Shown piece after piece: positions 23,955 to 29,906 of a stretch of DNA of 41,931 nt (its first letter is position 1; every line of letters begins with the position of its first letter). A program made the position numbers and the translations under genes. The notes beneath the pieces are model-generated. The model made no database searches and was not told the origin of the DNA. It was given only the letters and a program-made list of their open reading frames with translations. Origin of the DNA: Nitrososphaerales archaeon (GTDB taxonomy: Archaea > Thermoproteota > Nitrososphaeria > Conexivisphaerales > Conexivisphaeraceae); assembly GCA_023256385.1 (NCBI GenBank), contig JAGDXL010000019.1:1-41931 (forward strand). Reading direction: 5' to 3'.

Positions 23955-24043
23955 ACCTACCGTTAAACTGTGAGGATAAAAAGGCCGCGGTAGATGCGCG
24001 ATACCCTTATTTATGAGTCGCTCACTAGGAGGCGCGATCGACA

Positions 24044-24109
24044 ATGTCGGAGCGCATGAGCGCGTCACCATCCTCGGTTGCGCTCATAGTGCTCCTCATT
24101 GTCGTGTGA
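24044..24109 (+). CDS. BCAA-rich putative leader peptide of ilvB operon: [21 protein letters not shown]
   Basis: ATG...TGA, 21 codons; last ten residues [14 protein letters not shown]-like ttatttat at about 24009-24016 and AGGAGG at 24027-24032 upstream. Confidence 0.75.
24049..24095 (+). promoter_or_regulatory. Leader hairpin 1 overlapping the leader ORF
   Basis: GGAGC(24049-53)/GCTCC(24091-95) plus ATGAGCGC(24056-63)/GCGCTCAT(24080-87). Confidence 0.6.
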
Positions 24110-24111
24110 GT

Positions 24112-24136
24112 GGACCCCTCTCTTAGAAAGGGGTCC
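24112..24136 (+). promoter_or_regulatory. Leader hairpin 2 just upstream of ilvB SD
   Basis: GGACCCCT-CTCTTAGAA-AGGGGTCC perfect 8-bp stem; ilvB SD AGGAGGTGA at 24141-24149. Confidence 0.65.
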
Positions 24137-24156
24137 TTCTAGGAGGTGAATGTGAA

Positions 24157-25851
24157 TTGAACCTCATGTCCGGTTCCCGCGCCCTCATAAAGGCCCTGGA
24201 AAGGGAGGGCGTGGACGTCGTGTTCGGAATACCGGGCGGCGCAATAATGCCGGTCTACGATGAGCTGTTGAACAGTGATATACGGCACGTCCTAGCTAGA
24301 CACGAACAATCGGCCGCCCATATGGCTGACGGATATGCTAGGGCCTCTGGAAGGGTTGGCGTGTGCATGGCCACGTCCGGTCCCGGCGCGACAAACCTGG
24401 TCACGGGCGTCGCCACGGCTTACATGGACTCCACGCCGCTCGTGGCGATAACGGGTCAGGTGCCCACGTCGATGATGGCGAGGGACGCGTTCCAGGAGAT
24501 AGACGCGGTCGGAATATACACACATGTCACCAAGTACTCGTTCCAGCTGCTCAGGTCATCCGAGGTGCCTTACGTAACGAAGGCCGCCTTCTTCCTAGCT
24601 TCCACCGGTCGCACGGGCCCCGTGCACATCGACATGCCGAAGGACGTTCAGACGGGGGAGGCCGAGATGTCTTTCCCGGATCACGTAGACATAAGGGGTT
24701 ACCGGCCATACGTGCCCCCGGATCCGGCAGCAGTGGCACGGGCGCTCGACCTTCTGCTGGAGTCCGAGAGGCCCATAATACTTGCCGGCGGCGGCGTGAT
24801 AAAGTCCGGCGCCCACGACTATCTGCTGCAGCTGGCCGAGTCCGCGCTGATACCCGTGGCGACGACCCTGATGGGGAAGGGCGCGGTACCAGAGGACCAC
24901 CCGCTTTCCCTGGGCCCCGTCGGAATGCACGGAACAGTCCAGGCGAACAAGCTGGTGAACGAGGCGGACCTCGTGCTGGCGATCGGGGTGAGGTTCTCCG
25001 ACAGGACCACCATGGAGGTGAGGGGATTTGCGCCGGACGCCACAATAGTGCACTTCGACGTCGATCCGACCGAGGTGGGAAAGAACGTCAAGGCACATCA
25101 CGCCGTCACGGGCGATCTGAAGGCCAGCATTGGGCTGCTGCTTAGGATGTTCCAGGAGCGCGCCAGGACCGGGAGCTGGGGCGCCTGGCGCAGGAGGGTG
25201 GAGGAGGTGGTCTCACAGTGGCGCGACGCCGTTGTGGGCGTCAAATCGGAGTTCTCGCCGCCGCACATACTGAGGGCGATGCGCGAGATACTGCCGCCCG
25301 ATTCCATCGTGACGACCGAGGTCGGACAGAATCAGATGTGGGCTGAGCTGTACTTCAAGGTGCTGAGGCCGAGGACCTTCATAACGAGCGGCGGGCTGGG
25401 CACCATGGGCTTCGGATTCCCCGCGGCCATAGGGGCGAAGGCTGCTCGCCCAGACGTGCCGGTGGTCGACGTGGCGGGCGACGGAAGCTTCATGATGACC
25501 ATGAACTCCCTGGCAACCAGTATAGATGAGAAGCTTCCAGTAGTAGTGGTTATACTGAACAATTCATCGCTCGGCATGGTCGCGCAGTGGCAGAGGCTGT
25601 TCTACAACCGTAGATATGCCGCTACCATATTCGGGGCCAATCCGGACTTCGTGAGGCTGGCCGAGTCGTTCGGCGCCGAGGGCGTCAGGGTCTACTCCAT
25701 GGACGAGTTCCGCAACGCCTTCAGGACCGCGATCCGCAGCGATGTAACAACGGTGATAGATGTTCCAATACATCCCGAGGAGGACGTGTTTCCGTTCGTC
25801 GGTCCGGGGAGGACGCTGAACGAGATGCTATTGGGGGATGGAAGGGAATGA
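24157..25851 (+). CDS. ilvB: Acetolactate synthase large subunit
   Basis: GIPGGAIMPVYDEL, ATSGPGATNLVTG, TPLVAITGQV, ThDP motif GDGSFMMTMNSLAT; TTG start. Confidence 0.95.
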   Translation: MNLMSGSRALIKALEREGVDVVFGIPGGAIMPVYDELLNSDIRHVLARHEQSAAHMADGYARASGRVGVCMATSGPGATNLVTGVATAYMDSTPLVAITGQVPTSMMARDAFQEIDAVGIYTHVTKYSFQLLRSSEVPYVTKAAFFLASTGRTGPVHIDMPKDVQTGEAEMSFPDHVDIRGYRPYVPPDPAAVARALDLLLESERPIILAGGGVIKSGAHDYLLQLAESALIPVATTLMGKGAVPEDHPLSLGPVGMHGTVQANKLVNEADLVLAIGVRFSDRTTMEVRGFAPDATIVHFDVDPTEVGKNVKAHHAVTGDLKASIGLLLRMFQERARTGSWGAWRRRVEEVVSQWRDAVVGVKSEFSPPHILRAMREILPPDSIVTTEVGQNQMWAELYFKVLRPRTFITSGGLGTMGFGFPAAIGAKAARPDVPVVDVAGDGSFMMTMNSLATSIDEKLPVVVVILNNSSLGMVAQWQRLFYNRRYAATIFGANPDFVRLAESFGAEGVRVYSMDEFRNAFRTAIRSDVTTVIDVPIHPEEDVFPFVGPGRTLNEMLLGDGRE

Positions 25852-26345
25852 ATGGAGCAGAGGGGAGCTCACAGACTCCTATAATCTACTCCTTAATAGT
25901 GGAGAATAAGCCGGGCGTCCTCTTCAGGGTTGCCTCCCAGTTCCGCAGGAGGAGCTTCAACATAGAGAGTGTGGCGGTGGGCGTGACGGAGCGTCCCGAC
26001 ACATCAAGGATGATAATAACTATGCGCGGGGATCAGCAGATGGCGGAGGACTTCGCCAGGGTGCTCAGGCGCACCGTGGACGTGATAGACGTGGATCGCA
26101 TGGATCCTGGGAGGGCAGTGCAGAGGGAGCTTGCGCTGATCAGGGTGAAGCCAGGGGGCAAGGAGATAGCGGGCGGCGTCCGGGGGGAGGGCGAGCTGAA
26201 AATACTAGCCGAGTCCTCCGATGGCGCCATCATACAGGCGATCGGTCCTCCTGATTACTTGTCGTCCTTAGTGGACGCACTGGTCCGTGGGAAAGTACTT
26301 GAGGAGGTGGTCCGCACGGGCGTGGTGGCATTGGAGGTGCGGTGA
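25848..26345 (+). CDS. ilvN: Acetolactate synthase small subunit (ACT domain)
   Basis: YSLIVENKPGVLFRVASQFRRRSFNIESVAVGVTE. Confidence 0.95.
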   Translation: MNGAEGSSQTPIIYSLIVENKPGVLFRVASQFRRRSFNIESVAVGVTERPDTSRMIITMRGDQQMAEDFARVLRRTVDVIDVDRMDPGRAVQRELALIRVKPGGKEIAGGVRGEGELKILAESSDGAIIQAIGPPDYLSSLVDALVRGKVLEEVVRTGVVALEVR

Positions 26346-26348
26346 TAG

Positions 26349-27335
26349 ATGTCCAAGATATACTACGATAATGACGTGTCCATGGAGCCCATACTCTCGA
26401 GGAAGGTGGCCGTCATAGGCTATGGAAGCCAGGGAAGGGCGCAGGCACTGAACCTGAGGGACAGCGGGGTCGAGGTGTACGTCGGCCTCAGGAGGGGAGG
26501 GCGCTCTTGGTCGCAGGCATCTCAGGACGGATTCGAGCCCCTTCCGATGGATGACGCAGTGAGGAGGGCCGACGTGGTCCAGATACTGATACCTGACCTG
26601 CAGCAGCCCTCCGTCTACTCGAGCGTCATAGGCCCCAATCTGAGGAAGGGCGCAGCGCTGGGATTTGCTCACGCGTTCAACATGCACTACGGGCTCATCC
26701 GCCCACCCGGGTGGGCGGACGTGTTCATGGTTGCGCCCAAGAGCCCCGGTCCACGCCTCAGGGATGAGTACGTGGCCGGCAGGGGGGTTCCGTCGCTGAT
26801 AGCCGTGGCTCAGGATGGATCCGGAAAGGCGAAGGACCTGGCGCTCGCCTATGCGAAGGCGATAGGCTCCACCCGTGCGGGGGTCATGGAGACCACCTTC
26901 AAGGAGGAGGTGGAGACCGACCTCTTCGGAGAACAGACCGTGCTGGTGGGCGGCGTCACCTATCTGATACTCAGGGGCTTCGAGACCCTTGTCGAGGCTG
27001 GATATCAGCCTGAGGTCGCGTACTTCGAGGTGCTGAACGAGCTGAAGCTGATAGTTGACCTCATACAGTCCGGCGGCATATCACACATGCTGGAGTCCGT
27101 ATCCGAGACGGCGCGCTACGGCGGCATGACCCGGGGTCCGCGCGTTATAGATGAGCGGGTGAGGGAGAACATGCGCGAGGTCCTCAAGGAAATACAGTCC
27201 GGCGAGTTCGCGAGGGAGTGGGCAGGCGACGTCGATAAGAGCTCCGCCGAGATGAGGCGCCTGGTGGACTCCATCAGGTCGCACCAGATAGAGAAGGTGG
27301 GCGAACAGGTTCGGCGGCTGATGAAGATCGGGTGA
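26349..27335 (+). CDS. ilvC: Ketol-acid reductoisomerase
   Basis: VIGYGSQGRAQALNLRDSGVEV, TTFKEEVETDLFGEQTVLVGG. Confidence 0.96.
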   Translation: MSKIYYDNDVSMEPILSRKVAVIGYGSQGRAQALNLRDSGVEVYVGLRRGGRSWSQASQDGFEPLPMDDAVRRADVVQILIPDLQQPSVYSSVIGPNLRKGAALGFAHAFNMHYGLIRPPGWADVFMVAPKSPGPRLRDEYVAGRGVPSLIAVAQDGSGKAKDLALAYAKAIGSTRAGVMETTFKEEVETDLFGEQTVLVGGVTYLILRGFETLVEAGYQPEVAYFEVLNELKLIVDLIQSGGISHMLESVSETARYGGMTRGPRVIDERVRENMREVLKEIQSGEFAREWAGDVDKSSAEMRRLVDSIRSHQIEKVGEQVRRLMKIG

Positions 27336-28912
27336 ACTCGGTGAGGAACGGGCTGGATCCGCTGTCATCAGATGGTAAGGTCTACATATTCGACACGACC
27401 CTTAGGGATGGCGAGCAGACACCCGGCGTCGCCCTCACGCCCGATGAGAAGGTGGAGATAGCCCGGCAGCTGGACAAATTGGGGGTCGATGTGATCGAGG
27501 CGGGATTTCCCGCGTCCAGCGAGGGCGAGTTCGAGGGGGTCCGCAAGGTATCCTCACTCGGCCTGAGGTCCAGGGTGGCGGCGCTCGCCAGATCCGTCAG
27601 GGGCGACGTGGACAGGGCGCTCGCCGCGGGCGTCGACAGGATCCACGTCTTCATAGCGACGTCGGACGTGCACCTTCAGTACAAGCTGAAGATGAGCAGG
27701 GAGGACGCGCTGGCCAGCGCCGTCGACGCCGTCAGCTACGCGAAGTCGCACGGCGTCGAGGTCGAGTTCTCGGCGGAGGACGCAACGAGGACGGATCCCC
27801 AGTTCCTTCGCACGGTCTTCTCCGAGGTCGCGGCAGCGGGCGCCGACGTGCTGGATATACCTGACACCGTGGGCGTGGCCACGCCGGAGAGGATCGCGGA
27901 GCTCGTGAGGCTCACCAAGGAGGCGGCGCCGGGAAAGATTATCAGTGTGCACTGCCACGATGACTTCGGGCTGGCGGTCGCCAACAGCGTCTCAGGCGTC
28001 CTCGCAGGGGCCCAGCAGTTCCACGCCACCATAAACGGGATAGGCGAGAGGGCCGGCAACGCCTCGCTCGAGGAGGCCGCACTGGTGCTGAAGTTCCTGT
28101 ACGGAAAGAGCGTCGGGATAAAGCCCGAGCTCATCTACGAGACCTCGCGCCTGGTGGCCAGGCTCACCGGAATCTATCCGCCGCCCAACAAGGCACTGGT
28201 TGGAGACAACGCCTTCGGCCACGAGTCTGGCATACACGTCCACGGGGTGCTGGAGATGCCCTCCACCTATGAGCCCATAAGCCCAGAAGTCGTCGGCCGC
28301 AGGAGGTTCTTCGTCGCCGGGAAGCACGCCGGAAGCCACGGCATAGAGGCTATGCTGAGGGAGTATGGAATCGACGTGAATGAGGAGCAGCTGCGCCAGA
28401 TAGTGCGCGAGGTGAAGCGCCTGGGCGACATGGGCAAGACGGTCACGGATGCCGACCTGCTGGCAATCGCCAGGAGCGTCCTGGGGAAGCTCCCCGCTGG
28501 GGAGGCGGCGGTCTCCCTCACGGGGCTGGTGGTCGTCACGGGAATGGGCGTCAGTCCAACCGCGTCCGTGCGCATCCGGTTGAAGGATCGCGACGTGGAC
28601 ACTTCCAGCGTCGGCGTCGGGCCCGTCGATGCGGCCCTGCGGGCAATACAATCGGTGGTCAGGGAGATAGCGGACGTCCGCCTGGTGGAATACAGGCTCG
28701 AGGCCATAACGGGCGGATCCGATGCGCTGGGGGAGGTCGTGGTCAAGGTGGAGGACGACCTCGGCAACATGGCGTCCGCGCGCTCAGTCGGCACGGACAT
28801 AGTGATGGCAAGCGTGGATGCGATGGTCGATGGAATAAATAAGATCCTCCAGAAGAGGTCGGCGGTGGCAACAGGGAATGTGCGCATACAGAATAGCGGT
28901 AATAGAGGGTGA
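27332..28912 (+). CDS. leuA: 2-isopropylmalate synthase
   Basis: FDTTLRDGEQTPGVALTPDEK, VHCHDDFGLAVANSVSG, INGIGERAGNASLEE, C-terminal regulatory domain. Confidence 0.93.
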   Translation: MNSVRNGLDPLSSDGKVYIFDTTLRDGEQTPGVALTPDEKVEIARQLDKLGVDVIEAGFPASSEGEFEGVRKVSSLGLRSRVAALARSVRGDVDRALAAGVDRIHVFIATSDVHLQYKLKMSREDALASAVDAVSYAKSHGVEVEFSAEDATRTDPQFLRTVFSEVAAAGADVLDIPDTVGVATPERIAELVRLTKEAAPGKIISVHCHDDFGLAVANSVSGVLAGAQQFHATINGIGERAGNASLEEAALVLKFLYGKSVGIKPELIYETSRLVARLTGIYPPPNKALVGDNAFGHESGIHVHGVLEMPSTYEPISPEVVGRRRFFVAGKHAGSHGIEAMLREYGIDVNEEQLRQIVREVKRLGDMGKTVTDADLLAIARSVLGKLPAGEAAVSLTGLVVVTGMGVSPTASVRIRLKDRDVDTSSVGVGPVDAALRAIQSVVREIADVRLVEYRLEAITGGSDALGEVVVKVEDDLGNMASARSVGTDIVMASVDAMVDGINKILQKRSAVATGNVRIQNSGNRG

Positions 28913-29906
28913 CGGCATAGGTCCGGAGGTCGTGCCGGTGGCCATCTCGGTGGTCCAGCGCGCGGCCGACATCTTCGGGTTCTCGGTCGAGTTCCGCGGG
29001 TACAGGGCAGGCGACTCCGCGCTCGCCGAGCTCGGGGAGGCACTGCCGGAGGAGACGATACAGGGCGTCAGGTCCTCCGACGCGGCGATCAAGGGCCCCG
29101 TCGGCGAGACCGCGAAGGACGTCATAGTCCGCCTCAGGCAGATGTTCGATCTCTACGCAAATCTGCGCCCGGCCAAGGTCTATCCCGGGGTGAGGCCGCT
29201 GATGGACGGCGTGGACATACTGATAGTCAGGGAGAACACCGAGGATCTCTACAAGGGCTACGAGTTCGAGCTGCCGGGCTCGGCCGTCGCGCTCAAGGTC
29301 GTGACGGAGCGGGCGTCCAGGAGGATAGCTGAGTACGCGTTCAGGGAGGCCGAGAGGCGCAGGAAGCACGTGACCATAGTCCACAAGTCCAACGTGATGC
29401 CCAAGACGGATGGACTCTTCGGCCGCGTCGCGAAGGAGGTGGCGAGTTCCCATCCAGGCGTATCCTATAGGGAGATGTACGTGGACGCGGCGTCCATGGC
29501 CCTGATAAGGGATCCTCGCTCCTTCGACGTATTGCTCACGATGAACGTCTACGGGGACATACTGTCGGATGAGGCGGCCCAGGTCGTCGGGGGGCTCGGC
29601 ATGGCGCCCTCCGCCAACATAGGGGAGAAAATGGCGCTCTTCGAGCCCGTCCACGGATCCGCCCCCGACATAGCTGGAAAGGGGCTGGCCAATCCGTACG
29701 CCACTGTGCTCTCCGCCGCGATGATGCTGGACTGGCTCTCCCAGGCCAAGGGCGATCCACGGCTGGAGAAGGCATCTAAACTCGTGGAGTCCGCCGCCGT
29801 CACCGCCCTCAGGAGAGGGATAGCGACGCCCGATTTGGGTGGCAAGTATAAAACCAGCGAGGTGGGGAAGGGTCTGGAGGCGGTGATGGTTGAGCTCGGA
29901 GGATGA
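28878..29906 (+). CDS. leuB: 3-isopropylmalate dehydrogenase (isocitrate/isopropylmalate dehydrogenase family)
   Basis: IAVIEGDGIGPEVV, VRENTEDLYKG, MNVYGDILSDEAAQVVGGLGMAPSANIG. Confidence 0.92.
   Translation: MCAYRIAVIEGDGIGPEVVPVAISVVQRAADIFGFSVEFRGYRAGDSALAELGEALPEETIQGVRSSDAAIKGPVGETAKDVIVRLRQMFDLYANLRPAKVYPGVRPLMDGVDILIVRENTEDLYKGYEFELPGSAVALKVVTERASRRIAEYAFREAERRRKHVTIVHKSNVMPKTDGLFGRVAKEVASSHPGVSYREMYVDAASMALIRDPRSFDVLLTMNVYGDILSDEAAQVVGGLGMAPSANIGEKMALFEPVHGSAPDIAGKGLANPYATVLSAAMMLDWLSQAKGDPRLEKASKLVESAAVTALRRGIATPDLGGKYKTSEVGKGLEAVMVELGG

Follow-up and report, generated by a model that had tools for sequence, protein, structure and literature searches.

In bacteria, a leader peptide packed with branched-chain amino acid (BCAA) codons ahead of BCAA genes is the hallmark of a well-known sensor of amino acid supply. 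For the ilv and leu attenuators of Escherichia coli, the alternation of 1:2, 2:3, and 3:4 pairings and a terminator with a U-tract have been experimentally proven. The described cases nearest to the locus reported here are the ilvB leaders of actinobacteria, including Corynebacterium, Mycobacterium, and Streptomyces (PMC1262725, PMC10272879, PMC11857589). Replacement of the candidate codons in a similar ilvB leader of Streptomyces coelicolor left regulation unaffected (PMC1262725), a result that by analogy may count against the reading of the archaeal leader proposed below and calls for caution. In archaea, neither transcription attenuation nor antitermination had a known example as of 2021 (PMC8448881), and attenuation by upstream open reading frames (ORFs) is mentioned for archaea in a general sentence, free of examples, of another source (PMC10219788). 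No archaeal amino acid leader peptide was found in the openly available full-text articles searched, and the initial annotation of the DNA studied here had likewise been aware of no BCAA leader-peptide attenuator described in archaea.

The window, meaning the whole 41,931-nucleotide stretch of DNA analyzed, was found to encode an ilvB-ilvN-ilvC-leuA-leuB operon 3′ of a short ORF, with ilvD-cimA divergent on the other side, as assigned by Pfam and NCBIfam (Table 1). The sequence, frame, and coordinates given for this ORF by the initial annotation were exact on re-reading, and its count of nine Val, Leu, or Ile (V/L/I) residues among the final 10 was reproduced, with the codon run located at 24077-24106. 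The start codon is ambiguous from sequence alone, as an alternative in-frame ATG is possible at 24056. The leader stop is separated from the ilvB TTG codon by a spacer of 47 nt, and this TTG, preceded by the Shine-Dalgarno (SD)-like sequence AGGAGGTGA, appears to be the best placed ilvB start. To compare loci, any short ORF ending ≤78 nt from a gene start was scored by the number of V/L/I in its final 10 codons. By this measure, the V/L/I run of the window is far beyond chance: (i) the leader scored 9 compared with a maximum of 6 in 1,000 dinucleotide shuffles (0/1000 matched); (ii) the score never exceeded 6 for the other window ORFs of at least 150 aa; and (iii) none of 345 ORFs scored >6 in 160 kb of a sister genome (G001), scanned as 8 stretches of 20 kb. 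As in the classical leaders, a short ORF rich in end-product codons thus precedes a biosynthetic operon in the window, and its identification as a BCAA-codon leader is strongly supported.

Table 1. Features of the leader and ilv-leu operon region of the window
Feature	Position	Strand	Evidence or remark
TATA-like element CTTATTTATG, putative core promoter for transcription of leader and ilv genes	24006..24015	+	Sequence; TATA peak
Hairpin 1, 5′ leader part with V/L/I codon run	24040..24103	+	RNAfold
Leader ORF	24044..24109	+	ATG 24044, TGA 24107-24109; 21 codons plus stop
Hairpin 2, GGACCCCT / AGGGGTCC	24112..24136	+	8 bp, −13.7 kcal/mol, z = −2.45
SD-like AGGAGGTGA of ilvB	24141..24149	+	Sequence
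ilvB, acetolactate synthase large subunit	24157..25851	+	TIGR00118 731 bits; TTG start
ilvN, acetolactate synthase small subunit	25848..26345	+	TIGR00119
ilvC, ketol-acid reductoisomerase	26349..27335	+	TIGR00465
leuA-type 2-isopropylmalate synthase	27332..28912	+	NF002085 677 bits
leuB-like isopropylmalate/isocitrate dehydrogenase	28878..29906	+	PF00180 334 bits; TIGR02088 408.8 bits, slightly below the 409.8 cut-off

Conservation of the leader was examined in ilvB upstream regions at roughly 135 loci within the phylum. A score of at least 7/10 was detected in 51 of the 86 regions of the same class, Nitrosopumilaceae included (59%; shuffles, 1.05%). The peptides were highly divergent, as illustrated by MASRPLAGVSLAVSIVLLVILG from the window's family, by MDKRLSLTRLLNIDVLVVPLLVLLL, MEQLEASSKLVSIIRRLNVILLIIV, MSELPTPKPIVLSGLVAVQLVLLLVS, MKLGGSASISSILLLVDLML, and MPRTDSEHKVHVLVLLELA from further loci, and by MTKVDSTSISSILLQVELVL from Nitrosotalea devanaterra (L184). 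Nothing persisted across the class except the V/L/I cluster at the C terminus, the stop, and the position before ilvB; it is the composition that is conserved and not the peptide sequence. A codon run that is kept while the surrounding peptide and DNA diverge is the pattern classically sought in attenuators. The initial annotation had proposed related genomes as a check, in which the ORF, its codon run, and its stop should be retained and the flanks should drift, and this was the outcome in about 16 families of the class and, unexpectedly, in Archaeoglobi. The latter belong to a different phylum, with the leader first surfacing in Archaeoglobaceae during a scan of named genomes; 19 of 30 Archaeoglobi ilvB loci scored at least 7 (shuffles, 0.6%) and all 30 loci examined had a leader scoring at least 5/10, including MSATLELNNFGVVLGVVLIVVVVLLL and, before ilvB of an Archaeoglobus genome, MKKFSGKEFIVVQLLLLF.

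The distribution of the leader was uneven. Within the ~135 loci of the phylum, leaders were present in three families of other classes (f41, f62, and f69), most remaining families outside the window's class were without one, and a clear leader was absent from most members of family f4 and from 6/6 sampled members of f9. Matches in f36 and f53 were discarded because they fall within an upstream coding frame running to ilvB. A Trp-containing ORF before ilvB in f31 (MRSSRLWLDSGGVIGWSQPWVLGGI/MRLSRLWLGSGEEIGWSQPWVLGGI; L129 and L131) is probably spurious, since there too the upstream coding frame extends to ilvB. Outside Archaeoglobi, no ilvB leader was found in the 20 Halobacteriota genomes sampled, and in many of these ilvB sits behind another BCAA gene. 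A test of leader presence against operon-head position was weak (p = 0.02), and no conclusion is based on it.

The position of the leader on its transcript was next considered with respect to promoter elements. The best TATA match peaked 30 to 39 nt upstream of the leader start across 96 loci, a distance at which it occurred far more frequently than at others, with the element of the window 38 nt before ATG 24044; therefore, the leader is predicted to come first among the ORFs of the transcript, after a 5′ untranslated region that is very short or nonexistent. Two hairpins were predicted at the window. Hairpin 1, formed by pairing of 24040-24046 with 24097-24103, 24049-24055 with 24089-24095, and 24056-24063 with 24080-24087, had a z of −5.4 relative to dinucleotide shuffles (RNAfold) and displayed a single case of compensatory change, with A24043-T24100 replaced by G-C in a related genome (G002). 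This stem was very stable in the family of the window but varied among other families, and is not a general feature. Hairpin 2 begins 2 nt past the leader stop, with arms at 24112-24119 and 24129-24136, and is not followed by a U-tract, such that the pairing of hairpin and U-tract typical of an intrinsic terminator was absent from the window; both parts were found at L008, L018, L303, and L308. Such a placement was usual where a stable hairpin exists, with the spacer hairpin starting ≤4 nt from the leader stop in 25 of the 31 hairpin-bearing loci (expected, 9.7). T-tracts of at least 4 nt followed the ORF in 81% of the Nitrosopumilaceae and 89% of the Archaeoglobi sampled, instead of or besides a hairpin (e.g., CCCCGCTCTTCTGCGGGTTTTT of L308). 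Scanning of 19 loci against Rfam gave 0 matches above the gathering score, and RNAalifold detected no consensus fold for the full Nitrosopumilaceae alignment, probably because the spacers are unalignable across genera.

Folding was also used to examine how a ribosome on the leader may relate to these structures. In most of 23 loci, a ribosome footprint at the last V/L/I codon was predicted to abolish the stop-adjacent hairpin, and a ribosome placed on the stop codon was predicted to mask it likewise; the model below therefore hinges on the kinetics of ribosome release. The predicted accessibility of the ilvB SD did not change consistently between the stalled and released states of these loci, and a search for antiterminator (2:3) pairing gave nothing consistent. 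Hairpins 1 and 2 do not compete with one another; the folding instead predicts that a ribosome would mask hairpin 2 directly, by steric hindrance.

Other layouts and elements were observed near ilvB in relatives. In f16 (L051, L052, L054, and L112), the V/L/I run has GTCCTCC, a sequence complementary both to ATGGAGGAC within the same leader and to TTTAGGAGG, the SD of ilvB, which suggests a putative SD-sequestering version of the leader. In f5, a hairpin (GGTCTACTT..AGTAGACC) and TTTT lie within the leader ORF of L014 and L017, with a related stem in L011, and are followed by more V/L/I codons and a stop beside the ilvB SD; by its sequence, this layout is one of the same parts in a different arrangement. 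In six Nitrosopumilaceae loci (L019, L021, L077, L081, L082, and L167), a conserved AT palindrome resembling AATTTTAACACATTAAAATTATGG lies between the leader stop and ilvB, and may serve either as an AU hairpin/terminator or as a site for protein binding. In f25, of another class, a different conserved element, GTGAGGGATCGTCACCTCAATA, accompanied by a short stem and by an ORF that begins M-R-D-R, was located ~90 to 165 nt before ilvB (L142, L146, L147, L148, L157, L158, L159, and L173) and may be another cis-regulatory element.

From the composition, conservation, and promoter-proximal position of the ORF, together with where the hairpin lies and how a ribosome would mask it sterically in the predicted folds, we infer that the leader is transcribed and translated, and that it probably senses the charging of Val, Leu, and Ile tRNAs via the translating ribosome and so controls ilvB-ilvN-ilvC-leuA-leuB. 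In this model, transcription would begin just upstream of the leader, as the first ORF on the message. When Val, Leu, and Ile are ample, ribosomes would reach the stop and depart, allowing the hairpin abutting the stop to fold and lower expression; premature transcription termination or pausing is the most likely means, aided by the T-tract in some lineages and perhaps by FttA/aCPSF1 elsewhere. When any of the three is scarce, ribosomes would stall in the codon run beside the stop, and the stalled footprint would cover the 5′ arm of the hairpin such that the operon is expressed. That the footprint removes the hairpin in the predicted folds, with SD accessibility unchanged, would favor a stalled ribosome that prevents an inhibitory hairpin. 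This hairpin may act on transcription, through termination that is either intrinsic or assisted by FttA, or it may act on translation, the window being without a U-tract. The initial annotation had read the ORF as an attenuation leader; its leader character is supported by the conservation and by the promoter-like element directly upstream, and the stricter term attenuator should be applied provisionally at the window, because the U-tract that follows the hairpin in bacterial intrinsic terminators is missing there.

A BCAA-sensing leader might alternatively alter the translation of ilvB and not its transcription, through reinitiation, coupling, or release of the ribosome-binding site. We regard this as a credible but unlikely alternative: the window and several families are without a U-tract, the stop-to-ilvB spacing is short (12 to 74 nt, median 42; 12 to 14 nt in L011, L013, L014, and L017), and CCTCC within the V/L/I run of f16 is a possible pairing partner of the ilvB SD, yet SD accessibility was not consistently different between stalled and released ribosomes, and spacings >30 nt give little coupling in Haloferax (PMC12548453). 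The SD-sequestration form of this model was set aside, having no consistent support in the folding of the 23 loci. A further alternative, in which the region serves chiefly as an operator bound by a transcription factor (e.g., of the Lrp type) and the leader is minor or vestigial, is very unlikely; an AT-rich palindrome (AATTTTAACACATTAAAATT) does follow the ORF in some Nitrosopumilaceae, and archaeal control known so far is exerted at promoters (PMC8448881), but an operator leaves the preservation of V/L/I codons unexplained and the ORF is present where the palindrome is absent.

This codon preservation was apparent in close pairs of loci, where 52 codons at V/L/I positions differed by a single nucleotide and 41 of these differences retained V/L/I, compared with 38% expected; the observed count is somewhat inflated by the selection of loci for V/L/I richness, and the pairs are non-independent. 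The leaders were also specific in location. Among upstream regions of the same class, a score of at least 7 was reached by 0/30 for ilvD and 0/30 for leuA, and no recurrent Trp or His leader was found before trpE or hisG, respectively. Small membrane proteins are common and V/L/I residues are hydrophobic, such that the richness of the ORF in these residues could reflect a small membrane peptide and not amino acid sensing. This explanation is highly improbable, however, as the peptide sequence is unconserved and such ORFs occur beside ilvB but at no other point of the pathway. It is further disfavored because 69% of the non-V/L/I residues in the final 10 codons are polar or charged, A, F, G, and M being scarce, and because hydrophobic runs are short, with a median of 6 for the longest one (at least 15 in only 2/96 leaders). 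Finally, although short ORFs are common, a chance ORF within a GC-rich spacer is refuted by the shuffles, the background genome, and the recurrence across phyla, and has a negligible probability.

Overall, the ribosome-mediated reading extends to a broader proposal, to which we give roughly even weight: that BCAA attenuation by this means evolved independently and is widespread in archaea of at least two phyla and, in many lineages without a bacterial-type terminator, would operate by a stalled ribosome that sterically blocks the stop-adjacent hairpin, possibly gating FttA-dependent termination. The locus family provides many candidates for archaeal attenuation, some in cultured organisms (Nitrosotalea devanaterra and an Archaeoglobus), and the question is therefore directly testable. 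If the reading is correct, archaea couple leader translation to operon expression, and an unannotated layer of control would be added in ammonia-oxidizing archaea.

Compared with the known systems, the archaeal leaders most resemble those of actinobacteria, with which they share (i) a short ORF with an I/V/L codon run directly before ilvB; (ii) a hairpin that overlaps or adjoins the ORF end; and (iii) the same first gene. The actinobacterial leaders are bacterial and have reported poly-U terminators, whereas the archaeal leaders have a predicted promoter of the TATA type and the window is without a U-tract. The ilvG(MEDA), ilvB, and leu attenuators of E. coli likewise have a BCAA-rich leader before BCAA genes with the codons near regulatory hairpins, but rely on a 2:3 pairing that has no consistent counterpart at the archaeal loci. 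In translational attenuation of the ermC type, as cited in PMC10219788, stalling on a leader reshapes the downstream mRNA structure, as proposed here for archaea; the ermC-type output is release of the SD, an accessibility that was not consistently changed at the archaeal loci. The analogy to bacteria is suggested to be one of function, with homology not implied, and, if the proposed reading is correct, would mean that bacteria and archaea converged on the same logic of amino acid sensing.
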